Position numbers and translations under genes: made by a program. A stretch of 40,688 nt of DNA from a virus: IMG/VR virus record IMGVR_UViG_3300011115_000550, positions 1 through 40,688 of that record, one strand, 5' to 3'. Shown piece by piece: positions 7,159-40,688 of the stretch. Within the stretch, counting starts at the first letter, position 1; each line of letters starts with the position of its first letter. The notes beneath the pieces were generated by a model, which searched no databases, had not been told where the DNA came from, and worked only from the letters and a program-made list of their open reading frames with translations.

Positions 7159-7207
7159 CGACGCACCTCGATGATGCGGCGCAGGTCGGCCATTTCCTGA
7201 TCGCTCA
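7155..7207. repeat. 53-bp direct repeat, copy B
   Basis: Partner of 6635-6687 (three mismatches). It covers the 3' half of the 34-residue gene and is presumably the source copy because it is attached to a full leader and promoter. Confidence 0.9.
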
Positions 7208-7259
7208 TGCCGTCCTCGGCGATAATTTGTACTGCCGTCAGTGTTTCTGTGTTTGTCAT
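7155..7259 (-). CDS. 34-residue leader protein of the heptad-repeat cassette
   Basis: ATG at 7259, AAGGAG 15 bases upstream, stop overlapping the heptad-repeat start (GTGA). The sequence begins MTNTETLTAVQIIAEDG and ends in RIIEVRR; it looks like one amphipathic helix. The start region resembles that of the pentapeptide-repeat protein, which also has TGQIIAEG shortly after its start. It may be a regulatory or coupling peptide. Confidence 0.5.
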   Translation of the reverse strand: MTNTETLTAVQIIAEDGMSDQEMADLRRIIEVRR

Positions 7260-7292
7260 TTTTGCGGAAACCGGCTCCTTTGCCAGTAATTA
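7253..7292. repeat. Duplicated gene leader, copy 1
   Basis: This stretch (minus strand: GGCAAAGGAGCCGGTTTCCG, then the ATGACAA start) is nearly the same as 14782-14820, the leader of the pentapeptide-repeat gene. The two repeat-protein genes therefore share a duplicated ribosome-binding region. Confidence 0.85.
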
Positions 7293-7293
7293 A

Positions 7294-7324
7294 ATTATAC
7301 GCCTGCTTGCGCAACATGCGCAAG
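7294..7324 (-). promoter_or_regulatory. Promoter with overlapping TGCGCA palindrome (site a)
   Basis: A perfect palindrome CTTGCGCA-N3-TGCGCAAG spans 7306-7324. On the minus strand its upstream half gives a -35-like TTGCGC, followed after 18 bases by a consensus TATAAT (7299-7294). Transcription would start near 7287 and read the 34-residue and heptad-repeat genes. It overlaps the last codons of the helicase gene. A protein bound to the palindrome would block this promoter. Confidence 0.65.
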
Positions 7325-11151: not shown

Positions 11152-11576
11152 GCTCGCTCCATCTGCGCCACGTCGGCCTTCGTCCACTCGACAAACCGGA
11201 CGTCTGGAAACATGGCCCGCGCCATCTTTGCTTTCATTTTGTACATTGCCGTCTTTGCTCCCTTTGCATCGACCGCAGTATCCACGCCGTCGAGCACAAA
11301 CCGGAAATCTGATTTGTACACCGTCTTCCGAATATTCATGCCCGGGTTGCCGGCAAAGATCACAAACACCGGCTGCAGCTCCAGCCGCGAAATCTTGCCA
11401 CACCGCTCCCATAACTTCAGGATCACGTAAGCCCGCGCCTCCAGTTTTGACTGGAAGGTGATGCCGTCAACTGCTTTCGTGCGGTTCCGCATCTTGGAAA
11501 CAGGCAGCGCATCCGATCCGAACGGGTCCGGTCGGCCCATATTCCGGTACAGCTGCGCTGCCTGCTTCGTGGTCAT
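11148..11576 (-). CDS. DUF1064 family nuclease-like protein
   Basis: 142 residues. The stretch VDGITFQSKLEARAYVILKL, then LELQPVFVI, YKSDFRFVLDG and VDAKGAKT has the order of the DUF1064 family: an early Glu, then Asp and DxK, as in PD-(D/E)XK resolvase-like nucleases. Candidate acidic and Lys residues are E in SKLEA, D in KSDFRF and DAK. Likely a recombination or Holliday-junction nuclease acting on phage DNA. ATG at 11576 overlaps the upstream TAA by one base. Family call good; enzymatic activity inferred. Confidence 0.85.
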   Translation of the reverse strand: MTTKQAAQLYRNMGRPDPFGSDALPVSKMRNRTKAVDGITFQSKLEARAYVILKLWERCGKISRLELQPVFVIFAGNPGMNIRKTVYKSDFRFVLDGVDTAVDAKGAKTAMYKMKAKMARAMFPDVRFVEWTKADVAQMERA

Positions 11577-13980: not shown

Positions 13981-14159
13981 GCTGACTCCATACACCGCAG
14001 ATACGCGGCACTGAATTCTTCCTTCGCCCGCTCCCATGCGTGAGCTGCGGCCCAACAGACCGAAGCCACCGCCCGCAAAGAACGCGCCAGCCCGGCCCGG
14101 TGCACCACCAGAACCAGCAGACACGCCCCGCCCACCGCTAACAACTGAAGCGCAATCAC
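13977..14159 (-). CDS. Small membrane protein
   Basis: 60 residues from GTG 14159 overlapping the pentapeptide stop (GTGA), ending in ATGA with the next gene. Residues 2-21 are a hydrophobic helix ([18 protein letters not shown]), followed by a basic, then amphipathic tail. Single-pass, probably N-out. Small membrane proteins in early operons often alter the host envelope or exclude other phages; no family recognised. Confidence 0.6.
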
Positions 14160-14788
14160 TTTGCATCCGCCAGTAGAGTCTTCGCCCATGACTGAGCGGT
14201 AGTGAGGCAGAATCTTGTCATGGTGCGGTTGGCTCGGCCCTTCCAGTGCTCTACGGCTTCGGCCTCGCTGAAATGTCTGCATCCGTGCATGATTCGCAAT
14301 CCGTGGTCTGCCGTAAGATATGCAAAAAACGGCGATGACCATTCGCTAACGCCTATGATTTGGAGAAATTTACCCGTGAAGGTATAGTGTCCATGCTTGG
14401 CCCCGGCGAGGTTGGCCCCGGTGAGGTTGGCCCCGGTGAGGATGGCTCTGTAGAGGTTGGCTCCGTCGAGGTTGGCCCCGGTGAGGTTGGCCCCGGTGAG
14501 GCTGGCTCTGTAGAGGTTGGCCCCGTCGAGGTTGGCCCCGGTGAGGTTGGCTCCGTCGAGGTTGGCTCCGTAAAGGTTGGCTCCGTCGAGGTTGGCCCCG
14601 GTGAGGTTGGCCCCGGTGAGGTTGGCCCCGGTGAGGCTGGCTCTGTAGAGGTTGGCCCCGTCGAGGTTGGCCCGATTTGCGACCTTTGCAACTACCAACT
14701 CGGCTAGTGAGTCGTAGTCGCCCTCTGCGATTATCTGGCCTGTGTATCTGTTTGTGATGCTGTGTTTTTCTCTGGATGTTGTTGTCAT
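14156..14788 (-). CDS. Pentapeptide-repeat protein
   Basis: 210 residues. An N-terminal segment ([20 protein letters not shown]) leads into about 22 tandem A(N/D/S)LxG pentapeptides at roughly residues 43-150, which fold as a right-handed quadrilateral beta helix. The C-terminal 60 residues are non-repeat, with [20 protein letters not shown] and a helical end. Pentapeptide proteins such as MfpA and Qnr mimic DNA and bind gyrase, so a role in protecting or redirecting gyrase is possible but unproven. The repeat array is a 15-bp tandem repeat. ATG at 14788 follows AAGGAG by 12 bases; an ATG at 14845 is the alternative. Its leader is duplicated at 7253-7292. Confidence 0.9.
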
Positions 14789-14820
14789 TTTCGGAACCGG
14801 CTCCTTTGCCAGTGATTTAA
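14782..14820. repeat. Duplicated gene leader, copy 2
   Basis: Near-identical to 7253-7292 and includes the stop of the upstream gene, AAGGAG and the ATGACAA start of the pentapeptide gene. The shared leader joins two otherwise different repeat-protein genes. Confidence 0.85.
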
Positions 14821-15065
14821 CTTTGGTTGTCTTCTGTCGCGACAAACTTGGTGCCGCTGGCCAGTGTCAACGCCGCCTGCGCCGCCGCTTCTTCCGTCAC
14901 AACCGAGGTTGCCGCCGCCGCGCCGGTTGCCTTCTTCCCCGCCCGTCGCTTTGCGTACCGGTGCAGCAATGCGCATGTGTCCAGCAGAGCCTCCTGCGTC
15001 TCGACATCGAAATCGTCGAACTGATCCAGCCAAGCGTCTTGCGTGCTTTTCCGTGGCTTCGGCAT
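14817..15065 (-). CDS. Hypothetical early protein
   Basis: 82 residues, ATG overlapping the upstream TGA by one base (TGATG). N-terminal acidic helix ([20 protein letters not shown]), basic hinge ([12 protein letters not shown]), then an Ala/Thr-rich tail. No family recognised; soluble and probably helical. Confidence 0.62.
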
Positions 15066-17123: not shown

Positions 17124-20100
17124 TTAAGTTCTCCCGATCAGAATTCCACCAGAAAAAACCATTGTCAAAAACGTCGGCAAGACGGTGACTGTGAGACCCA
17201 CGTTCACCCCGCTGTAAAAATTCAGTGTGGATATGGACAGCGGTACGCTCAATGCGCCCGCCAATGATAGCGTCATTCTGGAGGTCGCTCCAGTGCCGTC
17301 AATATTAGTCACCCCGGTCGAAAACGTAAATCCACGGTCGCCCGAGAACAGGCCAAACCCATTGGTTACGCTCATGCCAATTCCGTATGCGGCGGCCCCT
17401 GGGGAGTTGTAGAATACAAACTTATTCAAAGTGTTTCCGCCAGCGGTGTTGTCGTACTTATAGGGGCTGAGGATGATGTCAGGAACCAGATTGGCCGTTG
17501 ACGACTGCCCTCCTACTGTTGTTTGCGCTCCAAGTAATTCGCTGGTTGTTGCCAGCGAGCCTGAATAAATGGTCGTAGCTGCAAAGGTCGGAGCCAATCC
17601 GTTGATGTCGGCAGCAACCAGTGACCGGAACGTCGGTACCGCAGCGCCCCCAGAGGAAGGCCCGGCAAACACCTTGTTTGCGGTCTGCGCCGGAAGTATT
17701 GGAACAGCGCCCAAAGTCAGGTCCAGTGTGGATATGGACAGCGGTACGCTCAGTGCGCCCGCCAATGATAGCGTCATTCTGGAGGTCGCTCCAGTGCCGT
17801 CAATATTAGTCACCCCGGTCGAAAACGTGAACCCACGATCCCCAGAAAATAGACCGAATCCATTACTGGCACTCATGCCAATTCCGTATGCGGCGCTTCC
17901 TGGGGAGTTGTAGAACGCAAACTTATTCAGGGTGTTTCCGCCAACTGTGTTGTCGTACTTGAACGGGGATAGAATGATGTCAGGCACCAGATTGGCCGTT
18001 GACGCCTGGCCGCCTACTGTTGTTTGCGCTCCAAGTAATTCGCTGGTTGTTGCCAGCGAGCCTGAATAAATGGTCGTAACGGCAAAGGTCGGAGCCAGTC
18101 CGTTGATGTCGGCAGCAACCAATGACCGGAACGTAGGCGTCGCCACGCCTCCAGAGGAAGGCCCGGCAAACACCTTGTTCGCCGCCTCCGTTGCCCACGT
18201 CAGCGCCAACGTGCCCGATGTCGTGATGGGTGATCCTCCCACCGAAAACTCAACAGGAGCAGTCAGAAAAATACTGGTTACAGTGCCAGCGCTGCCGCCG
18301 TCTGTCGGACCAGCTGCCAAAATACCAGTTGATGCACTGGCACCGGAAGCCCCGCCGCCAAGGCCTTCCCAGAATTCGAGATACGATCCAATCTGGTTTA
18401 CGTTGATGATCTTGACCGTATACCTGTAGTGCCCGTACCCGACCGTAACCGGGTCGTTCGTCTCCATGTACGGGTAGCACGGCACCAGCTCGCCGGTGAT
18501 CTCCTGAATGACATAGGATCCGTTCAGTTGCGTTGCTGCGTTCGCCGGCGTCGTGATCGCAATCGTGAGGTACTGGCCCGGGAACAGACCCGGAAGATAC
18601 GTCTGAAACTCGATCTCCTGTGGGATCACAGAATATGCCGCGAGCGCCTGCTGCGCTTCGAGCAGCCCGGCCGCCAGACTGGCCTGCTCGCTGTCGTCGG
18701 TGATCTGCTGATACTTGCCGGTCCCGTGCTCAATGGCCGCACGCGATGTCACTAGCGCCGTGTTCTCCACTTGGATCACCCCGGCATCAGCGCGGACGTA
18801 CTGAATCTGCAGCGAGCTTCCAACGTTCAGCGGTGTTGCAATGCTGATTGCGGTCGAGCCCGGCGTGTAGACCAGCCCTGCGGTGGTCGTGCCGAGAACG
18901 CCTACGGACATCGTGGTGGTGCCGAACACCGTTGTTCCGCCGTTCGTCGTAGTGCTGCCCCATGTGAAGTTCGTCGTGCTCTCTGACAGCGCCGCCACAT
19001 ACCCGGATCCCGCGGCCTTGTTCCGAACCTTGAACGTGAGTCCGATCCGCGCGTCCGCATTGACCAGCGGGTTCTCCCACGTTGGCAAGCTGAATGTCAG
19101 GCCCGCCTGGCTGGCCTTCGCGTTGATGGCGTCAATTAGGTTCTGAATTGTTGCGTTGTTGCTGGACCCGATCAGCACCTGGCCGAACAGAGTATTGTCC
19201 AGTGAGGTGACGAACGTATACACCGTGTCGTTGGTGCTTGAGAGCCCGCCCACGCCCGCGTTGGTCCACACCGCCGTGTTGTCGGTCGTCGTCGCGTTGA
19301 GAACCGTGCTCCACGTTGGCTGGACGCCGCCCGAGGTGCCAGCCGTGGTGCATCGCTGAATGTTCCCGTTGCTGTCGATGATGATCTGTCCGAGCACGTA
19401 GGGCGAAGCAGCCGCCCAGTTGTAGGTGCTGCCCGATACCGGGAATTTAAAGGTTATCGTGTCGTTCGCGGACGGCTGCCCGGTGAAGGTACCCGTCGCC
19501 GTGTTCTGTGTGTTGGTCGTGATCCAAGCGTTTGTGACTTCCGAGCACGCCCGCAGAAGCGTGAAGGTCTTTTGCCCGGCTCCGACAAACAACTCCGACG
19601 ATTGCGGGAATGCGCCGGTCGAGATCCGGATCGCCTGCCGGTTGCGGTAATCCTGCCGCGAAGGCGTGAATCCGAGCGTCTCCCAGATCTGATTCGTGAC
19701 AGTGAACGGAGCCGCCTGCGCCGATTGCGCGCGGAAGTATACCTGTTGCGTGCCCGGGTCCACGCCCCACACGAACCCGGCCTGTGTCGCCAGATTGGAG
19801 AATATTTCGCTGATCTTCGGGTAGTCGGTAATGTTCAGGCGGGCAATGGTTGGCCCGGTGCTGATCGTGCCCGCAGACACCTGCGAACCAGCCGCCAGCG
19901 TCAGAAGATCGTTGAAGATGTATCCCGCCGTCTGGTTCGTGTACAGGAGAGGCGGAACCATGATCGTGTCGAAGACCTGCTCCAGCGACACCGCCGTAAT
20001 CGTGATGAACTGATCGCCATCGTTGCCGAACCACTTATCTTCCAGCCGGTCGATGGTGCCCGCGAACACAAGCGTTGCTCCGAGCGACGTCTGGTCATAC

Positions 20101-21521
20101 AGATAGATCAGAGTTCCAATGGTCGGCTGGTACGTGTCGCCGGATGCGATTCGAAGCGAAATACTGGCCTGCCCGCGCTGCCGAAGCTGAAGCGAAAAAC
20201 TATGGTCGCTGCCTCCGCCTCCGATGTGAAGGTATGAGGAACGGTCGGTCAGGCCGATGGTCGGCTCATTGATTAGCAGCCATCCAGAAGGTGGAGCCGT
20301 TCCACCACCAATTGCAAAGTATCCGACCAGTGTTGCGTTTGCACTGTTGGTCGTCCACCGGGCTGTGATTGCTGTCGATGACACCGACAGTGCCGCAATG
20401 GAATCCACGACAGGAGTGTCGTTGTCGGCAACATCAAAACCATCCTTGGAATCGTAGCAATGAACGTTTGAGGTGAGTGAAGAGTTTGCCCATTTCTCCT
20501 GAATTGCTGTGGCGGAAACCCTTCCAGATGTATCGCGGGCTGAAATACCTAAACGCACTCCGCGCGTAGTTTCGACATGCGTTTTTTGTGCAGCACACAG
20601 CATTAACGCAGAACTGCGAAACCCTACAGTATCGGATTGAGATTGCGGAGCCGATCCGGTTGGCTTAGTAAAAAATCCCGCAAACCCATTCGTGACTTTG
20701 AGCACCAAGCTCGCAATGCGAAACGCTCCGGACGGCAGCGTTTGAAGTTCCACGGTGAACCCATCGGCATTGTATGATCCATGCCGCGCCCGAAATGAAA
20801 TCGCACCTAGACTACTCAGCCCCTGGATACAGGCTTCGCCAGCCGCAGCGCCTGTTGGCTGGCTGAAGTTCGCGTAAGCATTTTTTTGTGTCTGCGCGTC
20901 TTGGTCGAACATTGACCAAGCCCATTGCCCCGCGTTCGCGCCTGACGCCGCACTTACGGCATTCGGCCCCGTAACACCTATTCCGATAGCGGCAGACGCT
21001 GATGATGCTGGCAATGCTGCTGTGGTGCCGCCAGCATGGAGGTGTAGAACAAAATTAGGCGTGAACCCGGCTCCAGTAACTGCCTGCGTCGCACCGGCTG
21101 TTGCCATCGTCCAATTGAGAGCGGCACTGTTGAGAACTTCGCCGCTCTCCAGCGCGAGGCAATGAATCGAATATGCTGTGTTGTCAGTATTTGCTGACCA
21201 TGTGAGCGTAAACCCATCAGTGCCGATTGCAAGCGTCGCCTGGCTTTCGGTTGCGTATGCCCCGTCGCAAAAAATGATTGGTACTGCCGCAAAGATTCTC
21301 CCAGTCGTGCTGGTTGCCAACCCGTTTTGTGATGCCCCGCAGACCGAATACGAACCACTCGGACTCCAGAATCCCACCATCTGCCGGAAATTACTTTCCC
21401 ATCCGTTCTGATTTCCCGCGCCGGATGACCAGAAAATAATAGCGGCAGGCTGAAATCCGAGCCCCCCTATTACCTGATCGCCAATCGAATTACTTTTCGA
21501 GAATGTTATAGAAGCGCTCAT
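17124..21521 (-). CDS. Large tail hub/fibre fusion protein with tandem C-terminal repeats
   Basis: 1465 residues, the largest gene. Residues 1-390 are a lectin-like N-terminal section (repeated ADGFTVELQ/TDGFTLTWS, SVDSIAALSVSSTAI). The middle, about 430-1100, looks like a baseplate hub/tail-tip protein (TIGTLIYLYDQTSLGATLVF, LEAQQALAAYSVIPQEIEFQ). Then come two 167-residue tandem repeats starting ANKVFAGPSSGG, a motif common in tail fibres. It overlaps the tape-measure stop. Fusing hub and receptor-binding sections in one chain is unusual. The C-terminus (GGILIGRT) probably faces the host. Binding target unknown. Confidence 0.82.
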   Translation of the reverse strand: MSASITFSKSNSIGDQVIGGLGFQPAAIIFWSSGAGNQNGWESNFRQMVGFWSPSGSYSVCGASQNGLATSTTGRIFAAVPIIFCDGAYATESQATLAIGTDGFTLTWSANTDNTAYSIHCLALESGEVLNSAALNWTMATAGATQAVTGAGFTPNFVLHLHAGGTTAALPASSASAAIGIGVTGPNAVSAASGANAGQWAWSMFDQDAQTQKNAYANFSQPTGAAAGEACIQGLSSLGAISFRARHGSYNADGFTVELQTLPSGAFRIASLVLKVTNGFAGFFTKPTGSAPQSQSDTVGFRSSALMLCAAQKTHVETTRGVRLGISARDTSGRVSATAIQEKWANSSLTSNVHCYDSKDGFDVADNDTPVVDSIAALSVSSTAITARWTTNSANATLVGYFAIGGGTAPPSGWLLINEPTIGLTDRSSYLHIGGGGSDHSFSLQLRQRGQASISLRIASGDTYQPTIGTLIYLYDQTSLGATLVFAGTIDRLEDKWFGNDGDQFITITAVSLEQVFDTIMVPPLLYTNQTAGYIFNDLLTLAAGSQVSAGTISTGPTIARLNITDYPKISEIFSNLATQAGFVWGVDPGTQQVYFRAQSAQAAPFTVTNQIWETLGFTPSRQDYRNRQAIRISTGAFPQSSELFVGAGQKTFTLLRACSEVTNAWITTNTQNTATGTFTGQPSANDTITFKFPVSGSTYNWAAASPYVLGQIIIDSNGNIQRCTTAGTSGGVQPTWSTVLNATTTDNTAVWTNAGVGGLSSTNDTVYTFVTSLDNTLFGQVLIGSSNNATIQNLIDAINAKASQAGLTFSLPTWENPLVNADARIGLTFKVRNKAAGSGYVAALSESTTNFTWGSTTTNGGTTVFGTTTMSVGVLGTTTAGLVYTPGSTAISIATPLNVGSSLQIQYVRADAGVIQVENTALVTSRAAIEHGTGKYQQITDDSEQASLAAGLLEAQQALAAYSVIPQEIEFQTYLPGLFPGQYLTIAITTPANAATQLNGSYVIQEITGELVPCYPYMETNDPVTVGYGHYRYTVKIINVNQIGSYLEFWEGLGGGASGASASTGILAAGPTDGGSAGTVTSIFLTAPVEFSVGGSPITTSGTLALTWATEAANKVFAGPSSGGVATPTFRSLVAADINGLAPTFAVTTIYSGSLATTSELLGAQTTVGGQASTANLVPDIILSPFKYDNTVGGNTLNKFAFYNSPGSAAYGIGMSASNGFGLFSGDRGFTFSTGVTNIDGTGATSRMTLSLAGALSVPLSISTLDLTLGAVPILPAQTANKVFAGPSSGGAAVPTFRSLVAADINGLAPTFAATTIYSGSLATTSELLGAQTTVGGQSSTANLVPDIILSPYKYDNTAGGNTLNKFVFYNSPGAAAYGIGMSVTNGFGLFSGDRGFTFSTGVTNIDGTGATSRMTLSLAGALSVPLSISTLNFYSGVNVGLTVTVLPTFLTMVFSGGILIGRT
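17223..17693. repeat. Fibre repeat, copy 1 (501-bp offset)
   Basis: Closely similar to 17724-18194 at a constant offset of 501 bp (167 codons), in frame. Differences are scattered substitutions, indicating an older duplication of the receptor-facing domain. Confidence 0.88.
17724..18194. repeat. Fibre repeat, copy 2
   Basis: Partner of 17223-17693. The two copies encode parallel ANKVFAGPSSGG...ATSRMTLSLAGALS domains near the C-terminus of the tail protein. Confidence 0.88.
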
Positions 21522-23974
21522 CGTGTACTCGGGCTGAACTTTGGAGACGCGCTCTTCAGATACTGGCTGATCTCGCGCACCACGCCCCGCGCATCCCTCG
21601 CGTTGTGAACGTGGAACGTGTTGCTCTGGTTCCCTGAGCTATTGTCTACGCTCGACATTGATCCACCACCAGCCCCCGCAAAAGCGAATGAACCCATGCC
21701 CGGCGCACTTGGTGCCGACATCAGGCTTCGCGTCCGCTCTGCAGTGATTATGGTCCCAGCCGTACGAGGAACGAAGAGTTCCGGGCCGCGCTCGCCGACC
21801 AGCGAAGGAACACCCACCGGAGGTTGGCCGCCGTTTGCGAATGGAATAATGGAGTTTACGCTCATTGCAACGGTCAGGGCATCAACCGAAGATGTGAGAA
21901 TACCCATTGCTGTGACCTCTGCAGTGGCCGCGGCTGTTGTTGCTGCAGCAGACGCGGTATTTGAGGCAACAATAGCCGCGGCGCTGGTGGTGGATGAAGT
22001 CCCGAATATCACCCCGAGCGCCGACGTTGCGGCCGTCTCTAAACCTGTTTTGATTATTAATTGCTTTATTGCCGCCGTGAGCGTCGCTCCAAGGAGCTGC
22101 TGGCCGATTCCTTTGAGTGAGTTCTTGATTTCTTTCCCAATATTGCCGCCGTTGACGATTGCTCCGGCAGCGGCGTTGCCCACCGCCCCAGGAATCTGCC
22201 TTCCGATTCCTTCGATACTGCGCCGTAAATCATCCCGACCATGCGTGTCGTCGTACATTTTCTTCTGTTTTTTTTCTATGCTTGCCACCTCATTTAGTTC
22301 TTTATCTGCACCAATACCCTGAGCACTGTTCAACGCAATCTGTTCTTCCAGAATTTTACGCCGCAAAGCAAGTTGTGTCCCCAATGGGATCGCTACAGCC
22401 TGAGCCATGTCTAATGTCTTTTGCTGTCCGGCAATTGATGCTTGCTGGTACTGGCTCGTATAGACTCCCAATGTTTTTAGTATCTCGATTTGTCCCAGCG
22501 CGGTACCGGAAAGCATCCCCTGCCCGCGAATCGGAACCTGCGCTATTTCCGGCTTCGGCTCGTACTGCCGCCTTTCTTCGGTCGCTTCCCGCTTCGCCGC
22601 CCGGGGGCCGTACTCAAGCTCCTCTTTTGCCATCTTCAGGTTGAATTCGTGGATTTTCTCCGCGAATGCCTGAACCTGCTTCTCCTGCAGGTCGTCTGCG
22701 GTCTTCCGCTCTGACAGTATCTCTTGGTTCAGCCGCCCGAGCGTGCGCCCAATCTCCCGCTGGATCTCAATATACCTACGGCCGCCCTGCTCTACTTCCG
22801 CGAGCCGCTGCTGCCAAAATTCGGTTTCCTCCGCGTGTGTAACCGCGTGATCCGCCTGCAGGTCGGCCAGCATCGTCGAGTTCGCCGACCTAATTGCGGA
22901 CATCTCGGCCTGCACCCGTTCCGCTGCCCGGTTCGCCGCCTCGGTAGCCTTATTCTTCTGTTCCTGGCTGTCGCCGAGCACCAGACCTATCGTTTCTAGC
23001 GCCGTTATTCTGGTTGCCTGCTTTGCAACCGCCTGTTGCGTTTCCGCCTTCTGCATATCAACACGCAAACCATCGAGAGCCTTACGGTGCCTTTGAATTG
23101 TACTTTCGATTGATAGTGCGCCCTGCTCGACCAGTCCTTCATTGAGCTTGATCAGCCCTTTGATCTTTTCTTCTTCTTCCGCAATCTGGGCCGAAGTCAT
23201 GGAAATCGCGTCCCGAGGTGCGTTTTCCATGCTTAGTTTTTGTGGCTGTTCAAGCGCCTTGGCCGATGTCTTGCCAAGCGTCATTTCATTTATTCGATTT
23301 TGACCAGCCTGCAATTTTTCGCCAAGTTGCTGAACTTCGGCACCGACCCTTTGCGCGTTTTCGGCAGCTTTCTTCTCAGCCTCGCTGATTCCGCTCCACA
23401 GGTTTAGCGCTTTGCCAAGGTGCTCGACCATCCGAAACACGGCTTCGCCCACCGCAATCGCGCCGACAACGGGAAAGATCGTCTGCGCCGCCGCCCCGAG
23501 ACCAGGTATCATCGTCAGTGCCCGTTCCGCCGCCCGCAGTGCTCCAGAACCTTCTGACACACGAATAGCCCCGGACACAGCCTGCATCTGCGTGAGTTCG
23601 CCGTGCGCAGCCTTTGCTGACGCCCGAGTCATATCCAACTGAGCTTTAAGCGCGGCCTGTGCCACCGTCGCTTGTTTCAATTCGGATTCATAAGACGCCA
23701 GAGCCGCCGCTGCTTCTTTGCTGCCGGCAGCCGCGAACGATCCAAAGTTAGCCTGCGCCTCGGCCATGTTTTTCGTGGCCGTGCGGACCGCCTGTTCCGC
23801 CGCCGCGAACTGTGCCTTGATGGCATCGGCACCAGACGCCGCACCATTGGCTATGGCCTTTGAGATATCGGCCCCGCCCTTCGTAGCGGTTGCCTGCGCC
23901 GACTGCAGCGCCGACCGCAGCCCGGTCTGATCCGCTGTAATACTGACGCTTACACTTCCGAGTTCTTCAGGCAT
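21518..23974 (-). CDS. Tail tape measure protein
   Basis: 818 residues. N-terminal beta-like start (LGSVSVSITADQTGLRSALQ) then a long Ala/Gln/Glu coiled-coil region, a hydrophobic central stretch (MIPGLGAAAQTIFPVVGAIA), and further coiled coil. Near the C-terminus, Ala-rich hydrophobic helices (SSTTSAAAIVASNTASAAAT) and PSLVGERGPELFVPRTAGTI, a common tape-measure ending. It sets tail length and threads through the tube; 818 residues would suggest a tail of roughly 120 nm by the usual 1.5 angstrom per residue. It follows the frameshifted chaperone pair, the standard siphovirus order. Confidence 0.94.
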   Translation of the reverse strand: MPEELGSVSVSITADQTGLRSALQSAQATATKGGADISKAIANGAASGADAIKAQFAAAEQAVRTATKNMAEAQANFGSFAAAGSKEAAAALASYESELKQATVAQAALKAQLDMTRASAKAAHGELTQMQAVSGAIRVSEGSGALRAAERALTMIPGLGAAAQTIFPVVGAIAVGEAVFRMVEHLGKALNLWSGISEAEKKAAENAQRVGAEVQQLGEKLQAGQNRINEMTLGKTSAKALEQPQKLSMENAPRDAISMTSAQIAEEEEKIKGLIKLNEGLVEQGALSIESTIQRHRKALDGLRVDMQKAETQQAVAKQATRITALETIGLVLGDSQEQKNKATEAANRAAERVQAEMSAIRSANSTMLADLQADHAVTHAEETEFWQQRLAEVEQGGRRYIEIQREIGRTLGRLNQEILSERKTADDLQEKQVQAFAEKIHEFNLKMAKEELEYGPRAAKREATEERRQYEPKPEIAQVPIRGQGMLSGTALGQIEILKTLGVYTSQYQQASIAGQQKTLDMAQAVAIPLGTQLALRRKILEEQIALNSAQGIGADKELNEVASIEKKQKKMYDDTHGRDDLRRSIEGIGRQIPGAVGNAAAGAIVNGGNIGKEIKNSLKGIGQQLLGATLTAAIKQLIIKTGLETAATSALGVIFGTSSTTSAAAIVASNTASAAATTAAATAEVTAMGILTSSVDALTVAMSVNSIIPFANGGQPPVGVPSLVGERGPELFVPRTAGTIITAERTRSLMSAPSAPGMGSFAFAGAGGGSMSSVDNSSGNQSNTFHVHNARDARGVVREISQYLKSASPKFSPSTR

Positions 23975-32760: not shown

Positions 32761-33048
32761 TCAGTTCGTTCTGAATATCTGAACATCACATACCGGCGTC
32801 CAGTGCCGAACCTGCCCGACCATTTCCGCCGTCCATTCCGCCCCGCAATTCGGGCATGCCCACCTGTCGCCGCTCCGCATTGCACGCATCAGCCGTGAGG
32901 TACAGCAGTCATCGGACGCAAAGGTTTCCAGCGGACCGGCCGGCAAAGGTTCCTGCAGCTTGACCGCATGTGCCGCCTTGACCTGCTCGGCCGCACCGCA
33001 TGTGCATCGATCCACCGCTTCGCGCAGTTCCCGATATGTCGCGCTCAT
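32761..33048 (-). CDS. Small cysteine-rich zinc-binding protein
   Basis: 95 residues. Cys15-x-Cys17 (RCTCGAA), Cys48-Cys49, Cys65-x2-Cys68 (CPNCGAEW) and Cys86 could bind one or two zinc ions. Starts by ATGA overlap with the portal stop. CPNCGAEW is a standard ribbon knuckle. No family recognised; nucleic-acid or assembly role possible. Confidence 0.68.
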   Translation of the reverse strand: MSATYRELREAVDRCTCGAAEQVKAAHAVKLQEPLPAGPLETFASDDCCTSRLMRAMRSGDRWACPNCGAEWTAEMVGQVRHWTPVCDVQIFRTN

Positions 33049-34982
33049 GACTGCAGCCGCTCGGAGAACCGCTTTGCCGCCTCGATCAGCCGCCTTGCTT
33101 CCTGCGTGGTTTGTTTTGCCACCGGCACCGCGGGCTCCACGGGCTCGTCAGGCTTTCGCCGCACCGGGTCGTATAGGTCCGGTCCGGTGTCTGGATACTG
33201 CTGGTCCACCAAGTCATCGCCGCCGTCAATATCAAGCAGAGTGTACAGTTTGCGCACTCCGGCCCGCTCGTCGATGCCCGCAATCGATCCGGTGCCCAGT
33301 GTCATCGCCTGAACCACCGCGCCGACCTCGTTCGGTATGTCGCCTTCGAGGATCGAAGGAAACGTGACCATGACCTCGACGCGCACGGGATTCGGTGCCG
33401 CCGCCTCATACCTGACTGTCTCGCCGCGCTTCGACACCCGCCGCGCCTCCGCGATCACCACGGCATTTGCCGGCACTTTGCGCCGGTTGACTGCCTCGCG
33501 CAGCGTACCGCTGGTCGCGCCCATGTTGACCTGCAGAACATATTTCGCAATCGTGACCAGATCATCACGCCACGCCTCCTGCTTTTCCAGAAAATTGAGT
33601 TCGGTCGGTCGGTCGAGCGATTGGGCTGTTGCCAGGTTGCCGGTGCTGACGTCGCCGCCGAACGTCTCCGGAATCCCGAACACCCGCCAGACCATTAACT
33701 CAAAACGCCGCACTTCCTCCGGATCTCCACCGGCCCCAGTCGTTTTGAACGCCTGCAGGCTGGTGCCCGGGCCGCTGGCAAACGTACTGCCGTTGACCGC
33801 ACTCGGGTTCTGATCCCACAGCGCGGAAGCCGGTCCCACTGTGGTGCTCAACTGCGCCTTCACGCCTTCCAGTGCAGCTGGGCCACCCTTCGTGGTGATC
33901 GTCATCGCCACCTGCGCGAGCGCCTGCTTTACAGTCGCGCAAGCCTCCAAAAACCGCTTCGAGGCTTTCGCCCAGTCGAGCGCCGCGTACACCAGCGGGC
34001 AGCCGAACAGCCACTTCGAGACGGCCCCGCATTTCCGGTGCAGCACCGGCGTTTCCCACATCACCGGGTGCCCGTTGATCTGCTTCGGCTTCTCTGCCGG
34101 GTAGTACCCAAGCGCGGGATACCACGCATATTGTGACTTGGTGGACGTGCTCCCGGTCTTCGGGTCGAAGATCCGCTGCGTCCACACCCGCTGATAATAC
34201 TGCGGGCTGTCCGAATCGTCCGGGTCGGTGACAATCTCCTGAATCTCAAGCGCGTCGATCATGCGAACGTTGACTTCGCCGGTGTTTATCTTGTCCGAGA
34301 ACAGTGCGAAAAACAGGTTGCCGTCGTACATCTTGCGCCGCTCAAGGTCGGCCAGCGCAATCTGGCCCAAAGTGCGCTTGTTCCGTTCAAAGAACGTTTT
34401 TAGGACGTCGTTCGCGTCCGCATCCGGGCTCGACACCTCGACGCCGCGCCCAAACACGTACTGCGCCGTCACGTTAATTCCCCGCTGAATCGTCGGATTC
34501 TTGACGTAGTTCAGCCGCGAAATCATGATTATCTGCTGGATGCCCCACCGGGAAAACTCCAGCCACGACATATTGACCTGCCGCTGCCAGCCCACGTTCT
34601 GCAATGCGAGGTTGATGTCGCTGAATGCGCCCACCGCGCCAGCCGGAACCGATTCCTGCAGGTCCAGGCTGTTGGATCCGGACCGAAGGCTTTCCAGCGC
34701 CGCGCCGATCATGCGGTCGGTATCTGCCACCACACCGGCTGGAACCCGCCACGGTCCAGAACCAGCCATTGCGCGCGCCTCGACCAGTTCCGAGATACGC
34801 TCCAGCGCCTCCGCGTTGTTCATGCGATCCATAGCCTGATTCCGCGCGGACACGTCGTCGAGCTTGTGATTGAGCCACCGGTTTTCGTTGCGGAGTTGCG
34901 ATGTCTGGTCTACGGGTGGATTGAGCCATCGAAGCGCCCGGGTGCAGATTTGCTCGATGAAAGTCCGGAATCTTTGCCGCAT
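33045..34982 (-). CDS. Portal protein
   Basis: 645 residues, long for a portal. LVEARAMAGSGPWRVPAG, then YVKNPTIQRGINVTAQYVFG, RKMYDGNLFFALFSDKINTG, RMIDALEIQEIVTDPDDSDS, DWAKASKRFLEACATVKQAL and VWRVFGIPETFGGDVSTGNL give the portal clip, stem and crown order; GIPETFGG and LATAQSLDRPTELNF are diagnostic. Dodecameric DNA gate; partner of TerL. It is first in the head module, preceded by a terminator and a promoter, and separated from terL by the glycan island. Confidence 0.94.
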   Translation of the reverse strand: MRQRFRTFIEQICTRALRWLNPPVDQTSQLRNENRWLNHKLDDVSARNQAMDRMNNAEALERISELVEARAMAGSGPWRVPAGVVADTDRMIGAALESLRSGSNSLDLQESVPAGAVGAFSDINLALQNVGWQRQVNMSWLEFSRWGIQQIIMISRLNYVKNPTIQRGINVTAQYVFGRGVEVSSPDADANDVLKTFFERNKRTLGQIALADLERRKMYDGNLFFALFSDKINTGEVNVRMIDALEIQEIVTDPDDSDSPQYYQRVWTQRIFDPKTGSTSTKSQYAWYPALGYYPAEKPKQINGHPVMWETPVLHRKCGAVSKWLFGCPLVYAALDWAKASKRFLEACATVKQALAQVAMTITTKGGPAALEGVKAQLSTTVGPASALWDQNPSAVNGSTFASGPGTSLQAFKTTGAGGDPEEVRRFELMVWRVFGIPETFGGDVSTGNLATAQSLDRPTELNFLEKQEAWRDDLVTIAKYVLQVNMGATSGTLREAVNRRKVPANAVVIAEARRVSKRGETVRYEAAAPNPVRVEVMVTFPSILEGDIPNEVGAVVQAMTLGTGSIAGIDERAGVRKLYTLLDIDGGDDLVDQQYPDTGPDLYDPVRRKPDEPVEPAVPVAKQTTQEARRLIEAAKRFSERLQS

Positions 34983-35077: not shown

Positions 35078-35953
35078 TCAGGCCACACCGAACAGGTTCA
35101 GGCCCGCAAAATAGGCTGCGCCGTGCTCGCGCATCAGCCGCCGCACTTCCGCTTCCTGCCACGGTTCTCCGTCTGGATGATAGTATGACTGGTCAATCAC
35201 ACCGCGCTTCCATTCGTCCGGAACCGGCGAAAATTGCCACGTTGCGGCCGGCGATGCATGGTTGCCGAAAATCGCCAGACTGTACATCTGGTCGATTTCG
35301 GCCACCGACTTATTCGGCCAGCGGAGCCGCTCCGTGACCTTGTACAGCGCGTGTTTCGCCACCAGCCGCCGCTCGCACGCCCCCCAGTAATGGAGTACAC
35401 CGCCCGCTCCGTGCTGGAATGGCCGGTATTCCGGCATCCCGTGCCGTGGCTCCCGGCAATGGAACTTATCGCCGCTCCAGCCCATGCTGAAGTTGTCAGG
35501 GAACGCCACAGTAACCCACCGATGGCCCCAGATGCCGTTCTCGTGATATTCGTCGGTCCCGTTACGCATCTGGTAGAGCGGAAGTTGAAACGCGCTGCCA
35601 GTCGCAGAATACTCGATTGCGAACCGCAACCGCTCTATAGTATTTGAATTTGTGAGGTTCGCTGTCATGACCTCGTCAGCGTCCACGATGGCAATATGGG
35701 TTGCGCCGTTCTGCCGCGCGATCTCTAGCGACTCCTGCCGGTGCCGCATTTCGTCCCACATCGGATCCGGATGGTGAATCAGGTGCACCCGGCCCGGATG
35801 GTCCGCCATAACAGACCGGATGATGTCCTGCGAGGTGTCCGTGCACGCATGGAGCCCGACGACCAACTCGTCGCACCAGAGCAGCGCCACCCGCGCGGAC
35901 ATGCCTAATATCCAGCCTTCGTTCCGGACCGGCATTAGCCCTATAAGTTTCAT
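35078..35953 (-). CDS. Family 2-like glycosyltransferase
   Basis: 291 residues from ATG 35953. Opens with MKLIGLMPVRNEGWILGMSA, typical of GT2 enzymes, with DIIRSVMADHPGRVHLIHHP and the metal-site THIAIVDADEVMTAN (DxD-type). C-terminal half is Trp-rich (WGHRWVTVAFPDNFSMGWSG), probably the acceptor region. Third of four glycosyltransferases; last gene of the island before the terminator. Substrate unknown. Confidence 0.85.
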   Translation of the reverse strand: MKLIGLMPVRNEGWILGMSARVALLWCDELVVGLHACTDTSQDIIRSVMADHPGRVHLIHHPDPMWDEMRHRQESLEIARQNGATHIAIVDADEVMTANLTNSNTIERLRFAIEYSATGSAFQLPLYQMRNGTDEYHENGIWGHRWVTVAFPDNFSMGWSGDKFHCREPRHGMPEYRPFQHGAGGVLHYWGACERRLVAKHALYKVTERLRWPNKSVAEIDQMYSLAIFGNHASPAATWQFSPVPDEWKRGVIDQSYYHPDGEPWQEAEVRRLMREHGAAYFAGLNLFGVA

Positions 35954-35972
35954 CCAAACAACTCCATCCGCA

Positions 35973-36674
35973 TCAGTAACCTCCGTCCGCGACCAGAATC
36001 GTATTCGGCTCGTGCACCCCATCTGCCGTCCCATACGCGAAGAATTCAGGTGGATCTGTCAGCGGGATCGAATGCCGATAGGCCAACACGCTCAGCGCCG
36101 TCTGGTCGTGCCGGTGTCCGAGAACCTCCGGACCGCCGCACGGTGACTGCCGCCCGACGCCCGGCCCGTTCTTCCACGGTCCGCAAAATGCCCGCGTCTC
36201 CATCCCGAGCCGCACGTACTCGTCGAGCAGCGCCATGCCGCTCGCGTGCCGCAGTGACACCGCGAACGCCGTTGCCACCACATGCGGAATCCGAGAGTTA
36301 AGAATCCGAGCCGTGTCGATGTGTTCGCCCGGAAACAGCGTCTTGTATGCCGCATCTGCGGTCCACTGGTTGTTCATCCAGCCGTTTCGGCTGATCCACG
36401 CCCCGTGCTTCTCTGCCTCGTACCAGATTGGGTCGAGATCAGAGACCGGGTAGATACAGGCATCTGCCCACATCAGCATGTCGAAACCTTCCGCTGCCGC
36501 CAATTCCATCGCAGCCGGTTTGAACGCATACGGGATATCGTTGTGTGCCGGCGAACCTTCCGGCAGATCATCGAACGTTATGTGTATCTCTCCAAGCGCC
36601 TGAAGTCGATCCGTTAGCCGATTCATGCCATTCCGGTACGATCCCGTCGCTACTGTTACCACCGCTCTGCTCAT
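35973..36674 (-). CDS. Glycosyltransferase-like protein
   Basis: 233 residues, starting in an ATGA overlap with the zinc-ribbon-type gene. ALGEIHITFDDLPEGSPAHN, then FDMLMWADACIYPVSDLDPI (a WADACIYP metal-site-like motif), RNGWMNNQWTADAAYKTLFP and GHRHDQTALSVLAYRHSIPL resemble phage and LPS sugar transferases of the GT8/GT-A type. Acceptor unknown. Fourth transferase of the island. Confidence 0.75.
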   Translation of the reverse strand: MSRAVVTVATGSYRNGMNRLTDRLQALGEIHITFDDLPEGSPAHNDIPYAFKPAAMELAAAEGFDMLMWADACIYPVSDLDPIWYEAEKHGAWISRNGWMNNQWTADAAYKTLFPGEHIDTARILNSRIPHVVATAFAVSLRHASGMALLDEYVRLGMETRAFCGPWKNGPGVGRQSPCGGPEVLGHRHDQTALSVLAYRHSIPLTDPPEFFAYGTADGVHEPNTILVADGGY

Positions 36675-37027
36675 ATGTGCTCCTGCGTGCCGGGCCGCTT
36701 AGGTACTGGTCCGTGAGACAAATACCCTCGCGTTTTTTTGCCGCATCGAAGGCATAGAATCCGCACCACTCCATCGCGTGCCGTTGCCCCTGCGCGCCGC
36801 CATTCGTGCCTCGCCGCCAAAGCGCACTGCTTCGGTTTCTCGTCGAGCCAGGGTAGTATCGTCACCGATGCGGCTGGCATTCTGCGAGGCTGTCGCATCA
36901 CATTAGTCATGCTCTGTACCGGCAGAGATATGCTTCGCGGTGGATCGTCACTGTGATTTGCTTCCAGCCGGGTCCATAGCGGAGTTATCCCGGCTTTGAT
37001 TTTGTCGATTAGTTCGCGGTCAATCAT
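36671..37027 (-). CDS. Hypothetical protein with C-terminal zinc-knuckle-like region
   Basis: 118 residues if started at ATG 37027 (MIDRELIDKIKAGITPLW); a GTG at 37102 would overlap the FkbM stop and add 25 residues. The middle is Pro/Ser-rich (PPRSISLPVQSMTNVMRQPR). HEWRRAGATARDGVVRILCL and CLRCGK near the end could bind zinc with His/Cys. Lies between the FkbM methyltransferase and a glycosyltransferase. No family recognised. Confidence 0.58.
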   Translation of the reverse strand: MIDRELIDKIKAGITPLWTRLEANHSDDPPRSISLPVQSMTNVMRQPRRMPAASVTILPWLDEKPKQCALAARHEWRRAGATARDGVVRILCLRCGKKTRGYLSHGPVPKRPGTQEHI

Positions 37028-37074
37028 ATATTTAGCGCTTTCTTCAGCGCCCACCAAAGCACCCAGACGAACAC
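37024..37074 (-). CDS. Possible 16-residue membrane peptide
   Basis: GTG 37074 to a TGA overlapping ATG 37027 (ATGA). Sequence VFVWVLWWALKKALNI is a short hydrophobic helix with two Lys. The perfect overlap favours translation, but the size makes it uncertain. Confidence 0.28.
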   Translation of the reverse strand: MFVWVLWWALKKALNI

Positions 37075-37098
37075 CGCGCCGGGTCACCAGTTCGCCAA

Positions 37099-37689
37099 TC
37101 ACCCCCGCACCACCACCAGATTAGTCTGGTTCACCAAAGTGGCCCGATACCCGGCCGCCGTTGCCGCGCCCAGCAACTCCGTGGTTCTGCTGTCGTGCTC
37201 CACGCAAACGCACCGCGGAAAGTGCCCGATGTGCAGCATGTGCAAAAACAGGTTCGCCGAGTGCCCTTCCGCGTCGATGTTCCAAAAGTCGAACCCGCCG
37301 AACTGGTCCGCGATCTGCTCCAGCGTGATCGCCGGGACCATCAGCGAGCCTCGGAACTTCGCGATCCCCTTCCACCGCTCGTATTCTTCCGGGTTGCTGG
37401 TGCTGACCGCATCGTCGGTCACCTGTAGCGTCTGGATGCCGAGCCGCACCGCCGCGCACGCCTGCAGTAACTTGATCCGCCTGTCGTCCCCGTAGGCGTC
37501 AAGCAGCGTCTGCATCGGCCCGGGCGACGGCTCAATAATCAGGCCACCCCAACCCACTTCGTACAGCGCCCGCGTGTTCGAAAACACAAGCGGATTCCAG
37601 CCGCCGATGTCCAAAAACAGGCCCGGTGCCGCGCCTTCGAATGCGTCAAGTATTGCGGCCTGCTCGCCGCTCTGTGAATAATCCTGCAT
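37099..37689 (-). CDS. FkbM family SAM-dependent methyltransferase
   Basis: 196 residues from ATG 37689, preceded by GGAGG. GLFLDIGGWNPLVFSNTRAL is motif I for SAM; GLIIEPSPGP follows; ITLEQIADQFGGFDFWNIDA and EGHS match the FkbM C-terminal motif (DVEGxE type). These enzymes O-methylate sugars or lipids, fitting methylation of a phage-made fucose. It is preceded by operator-like site e, so a separate promoter may drive it and the downstream transferases. Confidence 0.9.
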   Translation of the reverse strand: MQDYSQSGEQAAILDAFEGAAPGLFLDIGGWNPLVFSNTRALYEVGWGGLIIEPSPGPMQTLLDAYGDDRRIKLLQACAAVRLGIQTLQVTDDAVSTSNPEEYERWKGIAKFRGSLMVPAITLEQIADQFGGFDFWNIDAEGHSANLFLHMLHIGHFPRCVCVEHDSRTTELLGAATAAGYRATLVNQTNLVVVRG

Positions 37690-37710
37690 TATGACCTCCA
37701 TCGAAACGTT

Positions 37711-37735
37711 ACTACACTTTGCGCAGATTGCGCAA
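37711..37735 (-). promoter_or_regulatory. TGCGCA palindrome promoter-like site (site e)
   Basis: TTGCGCA-N3-TGCGCAA at 37719-37735; on the minus strand TTGCGC can be a -35 with GTGTAGTAAC 15 bases later as a -10 region. The GTGTAGTAA tract matches site c. It lies in the 49-base gap before the FkbM gene, the only intergenic site of this kind in the glycan island. Confidence 0.6.
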
Positions 37736-37738
37736 GCT

Positions 37739-38338
37739 CTACCGCTGGAAATACATTGGCGCAGGGTATCCAAGCGCCTCGGTTACGGCTTGCCGACATC
37801 CGGTCAGGTGGTAATCGTCCACGATAACCCACCCGCCCTTCGACACCTTCGGCACCAGCGCGTCCACGCAGGCCTTCGTGCTCTCGTACAGGTCGCCGTC
37901 AAGCCGAAGCACCGCAATCCGTCCGATGTCAGCGCCCGGCACCGTGTCCGCGAACAGGCCCGGGTGGTAGACCAGCATATCGTCCGTTATGCCCCACTCC
38001 CGCATGTGCTCCTGAACCGCTGCCAGCGTGCAAGAGCTCAACCCGGCTTCGTGCCCGGCTGCCAAAAACTCCGCATCGTTCGGACCAGCTGCAGGAATAC
38101 CGGCGAAGGAATCGAACAGGTGAACACGCCGCTCGCTTCCCGTGTTCATGATCGCGCGAGCCATCGCTGCAGCCTGCGCACCACCGAACACCCCGCACTC
38201 AACAAAGTCGCCGGGCACGTCAGCTAGAATCGCAGCCAGCGCGGTAGAGTAGCTGGCCCAGACCGTCTCCCGGCTGGACAGCGCCGCCAGTGCCACGTTA
38301 TTCATCCAGGCTTCAAACGGCCAATGGATGATGCTCAT
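37739..38338 (-). CDS. TylF/macrocin O-methyltransferase family protein
   Basis: 199 residues from ATG 38338 overlapping the fucose synthase stop (ATGA). DFVECGVFGGAQAAAMARAI is the SAM loop; VLRLDGDLYESTKACVDALV and GGWVIVDDYHLTGCRQAV are the diagnostic motifs, with Asp residues that bind the metal. TylF-type enzymes O-methylate deoxysugars (macrocin in tylosin), so methylation of fucose or a fucosylated glycan is likely. Confidence 0.9.
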   Translation of the reverse strand: MSIIHWPFEAWMNNVALAALSSRETVWASYSTALAAILADVPGDFVECGVFGGAQAAAMARAIMNTGSERRVHLFDSFAGIPAAGPNDAEFLAAGHEAGLSSCTLAAVQEHMREWGITDDMLVYHPGLFADTVPGADIGRIAVLRLDGDLYESTKACVDALVPKVSKGGWVIVDDYHLTGCRQAVTEALGYPAPMYFQR

Positions 38339-39303
38339 AGTTCGGCCTCCGTCACATCCACCTTCACGATTTCCTTCTGATCCACAATTGATTGGATCCC
38401 GTGCTCCAGTGGAATCCGCGGTGCCCATCCCATTCGAGTTATCCGGCTCACATCCAGCAACTTACGCGGTGTCCCTTCCGGCTTCGTCGTGTCAAAAACT
38501 ACGTCTCCCGTGTACCGAGTCGCCCGCGCGATTATCCCGACCAACTCCCGAATGGTCATGTCTTCGCCGGTGCCGACGTTGATGATTTCCCCAGAATCGT
38601 AGTCCTGCATCAGCATCACAGCCGCGCGCGCAAAGTCGTGAGAGTGCAGAAACTCCCGCCGAGCGTTCCCCGTGCCCCAAACTCGCACGACTGGCAAACC
38701 ACGCCGCCGCGCGTCAATGAACCGGTCGATCAGGTCAGGGATAACGTGGTCTGACTTGTCGCCCGGCCCGTAAAGGTTGGTTGGCATCGCGCAGATTGCG
38801 TTGAACCCGTATTGTGTCCGGTATGCCTGCGCCATCTTGATTCCGGCAATCTTAGCCACCGCATACGCCTCGTTCGTCGGCTCCAGCGGGCCGGTCAATA
38901 GTGCGTCCTCGCGGATCGGCTGTTCCGCCATCCTCGGGTAGATACAAGACGAACCAAGCAACAACAGTTTTTTTACGCCGTGCTGCCGGGCCGCGTGGAG
39001 CACGTTCGCCTGAATCATCAGGTTGTCGTAAATGAAATCAGCCGGTCGCGTGCTGTTCGCCATTATGCCGCCAACCGTCGCCGCGCACAGAAACACGTAC
39101 TCCGGACGCTCCGAGGCGAAAAAATCGTTTGCTGCTCGCTGGTCCCGAAGGTCTAGCGTCCATTCCCATGTCGGCATCATCGCGTTTGAGATATGAGGAG
39201 CTAGGATTACCTGATAGTGCCCCTCCCGCGCCAACTCTGATCTGATTGCCGAGCCCACCAGGCCCCGGTGCCCGGCGACAAAGATTTTGCTGTCCAGCTT
39301 CAC
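38335..39303 (-). CDS. fcl: GDP-L-fucose synthase
   Basis: 322 residues from GTG 39303, which overlaps the gmd stop (GTGA) with AAGGAG five bases upstream. Rossmann loop GHRGLVGSA at 11-19; GSSCIYP near 118; YAVAK with catalytic Tyr147 and Lys151; [20 protein letters not shown] near the end. Converts GDP-4-keto-6-deoxymannose to GDP-L-fucose with NADPH. Directly downstream of gmd, as in bacterial colanic acid clusters. All catalytic residues present. Confidence 0.95.
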
Positions 39304-40295
39304 TGCGACTCCTTCTTTGCCAGTGCCAGATCGTGATCGATCATACGTTCCACCATCGCCCCAAACGAAATCTTGGGAATCCACCCCAGAACGGCCCGCG
39401 CCTTGCTTGCATCACCCCGGAGGTCATCTACCTCCGAAGGCCGAAAATACCTATTGTCTATTTGGACACAAGATGGACCTAACTTCAACCGTTCCGCTGA
39501 TCGCAATAGAAACTCAAAAACTGTGTGGGACTCTCCCGTCGCCACGACGTAATCATCCGGCTGCTCCTGTTGCAGCATCAGCCACATGGCCTCCACGTAA
39601 TCCGACGCATGGCCCCAATCCCGTATAGCGCTAAGATTACCCAGGAACAGCTTATCCTGGAGCCCGCATTTGATTCGCGCCAGGCCCCGGGTAATCTTTC
39701 TGGTGACGAACGTCTCCCCGCGACGCTCCGATTCGTGATTGAACAGGATCCCGTTGCAGATGAACATCCCAAACGCTTCGCGGTAGTTCACCGCATACCA
39801 GTGCGCCGCCACCTTGCTTGCCGCGTAAGGGCTGCGCGGTGCAAATGGTGTTTGCTCGTTCTGTGGTGCAGGTTGGTTCCCGTACATTTCCGAAGACCCC
39901 GCCTGATAGAAGCGAACCTGCCGTCCGCTGCAGTCCTGATGATCTCTCACAGCTTCCAGTAGCCGCAGCGTCCCGGTTGCCACCACATCGGCAGTGTATT
40001 CCGGTTGGTCGAAACTGACGCGAACATGGGACTGGGCCGCAAGGTTGTACACCTCATCCGGTTTCGCCTTCTCGACGATCCGCCGCAGGCCGGTCCCGTC
40101 AGTCATGTCTCCGTAGTGCAGAGTCAGCCGGTTGTCGGGCTCGTGCGGGTCCATGTAGATACCGGCCAGGCGCTGCGTGTTGAAACCTGACGCGCGCCGC
40201 ACAATCCCATGCACCTGATAGCCCTTCCCAACCAGCAGTTCAGCCAGGTACGAACCGTCCTGTCCGGTGATCCCCGTTATCAGAGCGCGTTTCAT
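39300..40295 (-). CDS. gmd: GDP-mannose 4,6-dehydratase
   Basis: 331 residues. NADP loop [13 protein letters not shown] at 7-19; AGSSEMYG with Ser134/Glu136 near 132-139; PYAASK with Tyr157 and Lys161 of the YxxxK catalytic set. It makes GDP-4-keto-6-deoxy-mannose, the first step to GDP-L-fucose. Length is slightly short but complete. ATG overlaps the glycosyltransferase stop by four bases. The phage copies the host pathway's first two steps to make its own donor sugar. Confidence 0.96.
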
Positions 40296-40688
40296 GCGAT
40301 GGGCTCGTGACCGGGAAACCAGGCCGCTTTCCGAGCCTCAAAGATGCGCTTGTACCTGTGCCATTCCTCGTGGCTGTTCGCGCGTTCCAGAAACGCCGGC
40401 ATCCGGTCAGCGTTGCCGCGTTCCTCGCCGGGCCGCGGCCGGCCCCAGTGGTCGTGATAGTGCGTGAGGTCTGGACGCTGCCAAAAGACGCCAATCTTTT
40501 CGGCCACCGCCTGCAGTTCCTCATCCACGCCCATGTGCGTGTATTCCGGCCAATACGGTCCCCGCCCGCCGTACATGCGCCGGGCAAACTCGCGTCCGAT
40601 CCACGGGCTGCCGGCCACTCGGTCGATGTAGGCTCCGTCTTTGTCGCCCCAGCGGTCTCCGGTCGGCTGCATCACGCCGAATGATGAA
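40292..40688 (-). CDS. Glycosyltransferase, C-terminal part (continues from base 489 through the ends)
   Basis: The C-terminal half of the gene described at 1-489. An internal ATG at 40675 is not a separate start; the protein reads through the duplicated end. It ends WFPGHEPIA at the stop, which overlaps the gmd ATG. The [14 protein letters not shown] stretch may supply a metal-binding or catalytic His. Confidence 0.78.
40562..40688. repeat. 127-bp terminal direct repeat (right copy)
   Basis: Identical to 1-127; an assembly overlap marking a closed circle. Confidence 0.93.

Follow-up and report, generated by a model that had tools for sequence, protein, structure and literature searches.

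A modular gene cassette between terL and portal of an environmental phage that probably glycosylates and O-methylates a virion protein

Phage particle glycosylation has so far been documented for a few isolates, and we describe here a glycosylation gene block located between the large terminase gene terL and the portal gene of the IMG/VR virus record IMGVR_UViG_3300011115_000550, whose whole length of 40,688 nucleotides was analysed (the window). The chlorovirus PBCV-1 codes for its own GMD and GMER and for A064R and other soluble cytoplasmic glycosyltransferases, and has a glycosyltransferase linked to a predicted methyltransferase; its major capsid protein carries fucose and dimethylated rhamnose, and its GMD also makes GDP-D-rhamnose (PMC5408694). 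The window resembles PBCV-1 in its predicted viral GDP-fucose pathway, its several soluble glycosyltransferases without membrane segments and its predicted sugar methyltransferase; PBCV-1 is, however, a eukaryotic algal virus, the likeness is one of fold only, and its glycan has been demonstrated whereas the window is known from its genes alone. Capsid and tail glycans are also reported on mycobacteriophages in the accounts of Freeman et al. 2023 given by PMC11256854 and PMC12619734. As far as these accounts go, Che8, Rita and the cluster F1 phages are, like the window, tailed phages with phage-encoded glycosyltransferases, theirs with glycans on the major capsid or tail tube protein, and Maravista carries its glycosyltransferases near the genome 3′ end, unlike the terL/portal slot of the window. 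Cyanophage gmd and fcl genes have been interpreted as cell-wall genes (PMC9602691). The cyanophages S-SCSM1, S-SKS1 and P-SSM2 possess a gmd 57% identical to that of the window, and P-SSM2 also a 23%-identical relative of the glycosyltransferase GT_35078, but these are large genomes in which the other core genes have no match. In bacteria, O-antigen and capsule loci have conserved flanking genes between which sugar-synthesis and transferase genes are exchanged. The module described here shows the same conserved ends and variable middle, an analogy of architecture with no membership claimed, but in the window it has no membrane flippase or polymerase and is set among virion genes. Nor does it correspond to a serotype-converting gtr operon, which consists of a GtrA flippase, a GtrB bactoprenol transferase and a polytopic Gtr: the genes of the window's slot code for no membrane protein.

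In our reading, the block is probably an allele of a modular cassette for the glycosylation and O-methylation of a virion protein, probably of the head; in this phage it would also supply a GDP-deoxyhexose. The first 127 nt of the record are identical to its last 127 nt, corresponding to a closed phage genome of 40,561 bp, so that the block seen at both record ends is continuous. It spans about 6.7 kb from the GT_486 start at 1235, across the ends, to the GT_35078 stop at 35078, and all the genes described here are on the minus strand. In the reading direction the slot contains GT_486, cross, gmd, fcl, tylF, fkbM, a 143-residue open reading frame (ORF), orf233 and GT_35078, most of them coupled by 4-nt stop/start overlaps, with good ribosome sites at several starts. 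The original prediction, made from the letters of this DNA, had named gmd, fcl, four glycosyltransferases and TylF- and FkbM-type methyltransferases in one set of overlapping genes continuing over the ends. All of them are present in this arrangement, and its reading of the gene content as GDP-deoxyhexose synthesis, transfer and methylation was right; five starts were, however, corrected, the probable true ones being 489 (cross), 39303 (fcl), 38338 (tylF), 37689 (fkbM) and 35953 (GT_35078), and the 143-residue ORF (36671-37102, with 4-nt overlaps on both sides) had not been listed. No relatives of this orphan ORF were found in family and contig profile searches.

The product of gmd (39300-40295) belongs to the GDP-mannose 4,6-dehydratases, with an equivalog score of 510.9 bits against TIGR01472 for a curated cut-off of 415, a match of 510 bits to the structure 1n7g and the catalytic motifs of short-chain dehydrogenases/reductases (SDR). 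The adjacent gene (38335-39303), starting with GTG with AGGAG upstream, codes for an Fcl-type GDP-4-keto-6-deoxymannose epimerase/reductase whose nearest solved relative is the E. coli GDP-fucose synthetase 1bsv (317 bits, aligned over its length). The SSC, Y/K pair and HVIP motifs, which we take to have catalytic roles in E. coli Fcl, are aligned in the window protein. The full catalytic motifs noticed earlier in both proteins are intact, and by sequence the second is a probable GDP-L-fucose synthase. Gmd would dehydrate host GDP-mannose and the Fcl-type enzyme would epimerise and reduce the product to a GDP-6-deoxyhexose, most likely GDP-L-fucose; because the GDP-mannose must come from the host, the earlier description of the machinery as self-contained goes too far. 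The Fcl-type enzyme might instead make another GDP-6-deoxysugar, a talose or rhamnose epimer, for an otherwise identical use. Its score of 413.8 bits does not reach the NF047922 equivalog cut-off of 500, the second enzymes in the same slot of the related contigs L050, L095 and L103 share only 42-45% identity with it, and the GMD of PBCV-1 has a second product of this kind (PMC5408694); since every one of its closest solved structures is a GDP-L-fucose synthase and its motifs align with those of E. coli Fcl, we consider such a different product quite improbable. In trees, the gmd and fcl genes of the window and those of L050, L095 and L103 look like separate acquisitions into the same slot; independent acquisition is not claimed, as approximately unbiased (AU) tests do not reject one origin (gmd p 0.14 and 0.33, fcl p 0.21).

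GT_486 (486-1235), the first conserved gene of the module on the terL side, codes for a GT2-like glycosyltransferase with a sub-cut-off match to PF00535 (E 2.4e-4) and a HWDDDDWSHPNRI motif; it is weakly similar to WcaA, and its orthologs at the same place are 39-51% identical. In the same way, GT_35078 (35078-35953), the last conserved gene on the portal side, is GT2-like, with a sub-cut-off match to PF13704 (E 1.9e-4). The cross gene is an ORF joined over the record ends from an N-terminal part (1-489) and a C-terminal part (40292-40561, bases 40562-40688 being the second copy of the 127-nt repeat). It starts with GTG at 489, in a 4-nt overlap with the GT_486 stop, and was aligned in a set of 29 ortholog members. 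Pfam search gave no match for cross or for orf233 (35973-36674), which also has orthologs. The predicted structures of orf233 (predicted local distance difference test, pLDDT, 81.9; predicted template modelling score, pTM, 0.83) and of a cross ortholog, used for cross itself (pLDDT 94.9), were compared by Foldseek and matched mainly GT-A glycosyltransferases, with modest TM scores. Both models matched the PBCV-1 capsid glycosyltransferase structure 2p6w, which was included in the best matches of orf233. On these models, orf233 and cross are read as GT-A glycosyltransferases. The product of tylF (37739-38338) scored 141.6 bits against the TylF macrocin O-methyltransferase family (PF05711; gathering score 23 bits), and among solved structures it is closest to O-methyltransferases, which include the sugar enzymes MycF and NovP. 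The FkbM-like protein (37099-37689) gave zero Pfam matches at E<=0.01; it was aligned with 8 orthologs, and the 66%-identical ortholog of L003 passes PF05050 (32.7 vs 22.7 bits). Both enzymes would O-methylate hydroxyls of sugars.

Gene order was compared in relatives of the phage. Scans of IMG/VR with the portal and with the cross and GT_35078 alignments gave 188 loci, which were merged to 142 contigs and searched with profiles at thresholds chosen within this analysis. The profile matches of each contig were all on one strand. GT_486 preceded cross in 86 of 88 contigs, cross preceded GT_35078 in 89 of 89, GT_35078 preceded portal in 48 of 48, and terL preceded GT_486 in 25 of 26. The usual arrangement in the window's portal clade is terL–GT_486–cross–variable middle–GT_35078–portal. 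Exceptions among the contigs were L187, where the module is before terL, and L087 and L172, where GT_486 is downstream. This comparison, which had been proposed as a check, showed a fixed order with an exchanged middle; a shared order had been expected of host-derived leftovers too, together with broken active sites, but the sites are intact.

The stretch from cross to GT_35078 measured 49 bp to 7.4 kb (median 2.4 kb). In contigs with both ends, an FkbM-like gene was present in 71 and an orf233-like gene in 76, while tylF was found in 13, fcl in 3 and gmd in 2; in L050, gmd and fcl follow cross and the contig ends before any GT_35078. The gmd–fcl pair is a rare allele of the variable middle. 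Other middle genes code for FkbM, Methyltransf_24 and Methyltransf_25 methyltransferases, a Gfo/Idh/MocA oxidoreductase, an SDR, a DegT aminotransferase and a sulfotransferase. L017 and L015, which form the clade closest to the window in the portal tree, have a middle set unlike that of the window: an RmlD-like/methyltransferase fusion, a cupin and GT2s, identified by Pfam scan in L017 and by sequence alone in L015. The variable middle of L101 codes at 10947-11525 for the sulfotransferase-family protein, which may point to a sulfated glycan in some of these phages. We found also, by sequence inspection only, HNH-endonuclease-like ORFs in the glycan slot of L007 (6802-7275), L020 (3618-4076) and L022 (8418-8939), 12 such ORFs being in one cluster; these are possible homing elements moving slot genes. 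Upstream of GT_486, a gene that is terminase-like by sequence was missed by the window's terL profile in L013 (592-1992) and L020 (288-1727); since portal and module are homologous there, the terminase itself seems exchanged.

In the portal tree, the module-bearing clade was split from a module-less clade with a Shimodaira–Hasegawa-like approximate likelihood ratio test (SH-aLRT) value of 100. In the module-less L038 and L039, terL adjoins portal, in agreement with the earlier statement that the two are normally adjacent, and in the module-bearing clade GT_35078 lies beside portal in all members whose upstream sequence reaches 1.5 kb. On this tree tylF switches between presence and absence at least 7 times, and the GC content of the island is 0.600, compared to 0.589 for the remaining phage. 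The clade-wide end genes, the labile tylF and the genome-like GC indicate that the slot is old and its middle labile. The original prediction had supposed that the block was probably inserted as a unit; a single late insertion of the whole block is rejected on the clade-wide conservation and the genome-like GC. Host surface-polysaccharide genes might also have been trapped by accident between terL and portal and kept neutrally, which would suit the patchy gene content of the middle and the HNH-endonuclease-like ORFs in the slot. With catalytic motifs intact, a phage-like GC, order and open frames conserved over highly divergent relatives and cross in so few cellular loci, we hold such cargo to be extremely improbable: cross recovered only 9 loci from 84,980 bacterial and archaeal genomes, in Acidobacteriota, Alphaproteobacteria, Planctomycetota and one archaeal metagenome-assembled genome (MAG). 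Cross-like genes that are 37-41% identical (L278-L283) were seen on MAG contigs labelled Planctomycetota/Phycisphaerales and in one Thermoplasmata archaeon.

The same module, with the same core order, was present in 17 contigs between an HK97-type major capsid protein (MCP) and the head–tail adaptor, in a head operon unrelated to the window's type, and about ten further contigs, at least 8, had it directly after the head–tail adaptor. PHROG tallies of the flanks in the HK97-type placements gave portal, protease and major head protein upstream, and head-tail adaptor, head closure, tail terminator, tail completion and major tail proteins downstream. The phage glycosyltransferases are thus co-located with virion genes, as expected for a virion glycosylation system. 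By simple sliding-window hydropathy, no membrane-length hydrophobic stretch was found in any of the window's slot proteins, which argues against any of the usual flippases, polymerases or lipid-carrier transferases. The three placements among head and connector genes and the lack of a membrane protein in the window's module together favour a virion protein as the target, so that the earlier view that sequence could not point to one was too cautious.

The same two observations speak against a remodelling of the host envelope, in which methylated fucose would be transferred onto lipopolysaccharide (LPS), O-antigen or another surface glycan and block superinfection or progeny re-adsorption. GDP-L-fucose commonly ends in bacterial surface polysaccharides, cyanophage gmd and fcl are read as cell-wall genes (PMC9602691) and GT_486 has its weak similarity to WcaA; with genes set among virion genes in three placements and no flippase, polymerase, bactoprenol transferase or any other membrane protein in the window's module, we regard this explanation as unlikely. 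The glycosyltransferases could also act on modified bases of the phage DNA, a role that would fit the packaging-gene neighbours. DNA-glycosylating phage glycosyltransferases are known (Pyle et al. 2024, in the account given by PMC12619734), and the window phage encodes C5-cytosine and N4/N6 DNA methyltransferases. Such DNA hypermodification is nevertheless very improbable, since no hydroxymethylase, TET/JBP or base-hydroxylating family appeared among the approximately 28 window proteins, a part of its ORFs, that were scanned with Pfam, the TylF relatives are small-molecule methyltransferases, and, in the HK97-type phages, the genes around the module code for capsid and connector proteins.

The most economical reading, by analogy, would be cytoplasmic glycosylation of a virion protein as in chloroviruses, with the same kinds of enzymes, and O-methylation in addition. 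The two outer glycosyltransferases GT_486 and GT_35078, with cross, are common to most phages of the group and would probably initiate a short glycan on a phage protein and extend it, all in the cytoplasm, with predicted donor and acceptor specificities; orf233 and the donor and methyltransferase genes of the exchangeable middle would set its outer residues. The modified protein would most likely be a head or connector protein from the same operon, modified during assembly, and the benefit may be shielding from adsorption traps, defence or grazers. Several points weigh against glycosylation of a virion protein as proposed here. A scan for Ser/Thr-rich acceptors singled out tail-side proteins and no clear head candidate; two large tail-side proteins (17124-21521 and 21518-23974, minus strand), with Thr/Ser-rich stretches of up to 45% in 40 residues, are possible tail glycan acceptors. 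Of 102 contigs, 21 received no placement; the flanks of these include terminases and ParB-like genes, so that many are probably of the window's type. The contigs were baited with module or portal genes and are partly near copies, and the counts are therefore not independent events. The structures are predictions, the Fcl-type score falls below its equivalog cut-off, and the glycan is deduced from gene content. Finally, soluble glycosyltransferases can also use host lipid-linked or LPS precursors, and late operons may simply tolerate insertions.

In the 50,697 phage records, mycobacteriophages included, cross, GT_486, orf233 and fkbM had no tblastn match at 1e-5, and GT_35078 had only 22-23%-identical relatives, in P-SSM2-like phages. 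The gmd gene matched 248 records, cyanophages leading, so that phage GDP-fucose synthesis was known already; apart from the sugar-supply genes and the distant cyanophage relative of GT_35078, the module is not represented there. No close cultured relative was found, the best terL being at most about 51% identical and portal about a third, and a search of the open literature found no description of this locus. The cassette of fixed order is carried by about 100 environmental contigs and by the prophage of one cultured host: in the chromosome of Acidobacteriaceae bacterium KBS 96, a prophage-like head/tail operon (L276) has the order MCP–GT_486–cross–FkbM–GT_35078–connector, its MCP, FkbM and connector being named by sequence reading and flank tallies. 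This was the only bench-accessible module-bearing case seen, and no strong further match came from 396 genomes sampled from the KBS 96 phylum. More than 100 related sequences with the same end genes and a swapped middle suggest groups of unisolated phages with exchangeable sugar coats. We propose, tentatively and with slightly more doubt than confidence, a mobile 'glycotype' cassette in which the conserved glycosyltransferase core of a widespread set of uncultured phages, with a middle exchanged as in O-antigen loci, moves between unrelated head operons and gives each phage its methylated glycan. If so, these would be phage particles with self-synthesised serotypes, each coated by a different methylated glycan. 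The gmd–fcl allele would predict one component of the glycan, the locus offers a testable case for why particles vary in sugar coat, and cross, GT_486 and GT_35078 can serve as marker genes for finding such phages.

The flanks of the slot are terL (1572-2918; PF03237 and PF17289) and the portal gene (33045-34982; phrog_10963, 6.7e-62). Between terL and GT_486, a small putative coding ORF (1226-1486, minus strand), overlapping the GT_486 start, contains a run of Asp-Ala repeats, KADADADADADVV, with a short tandem repeat in the DNA. Rfam and tRNA scans of the window found nothing. The neighbouring genes at 3270-4196 and 4365-5162 code for a ParB-like domain and an N4/N6 DNA methylase, each matching phrog_498, and a pentapeptide-repeat protein and a beta-roll-like protein are coded at 14156-14845 and 6685-7323, respectively, all on the minus strand.

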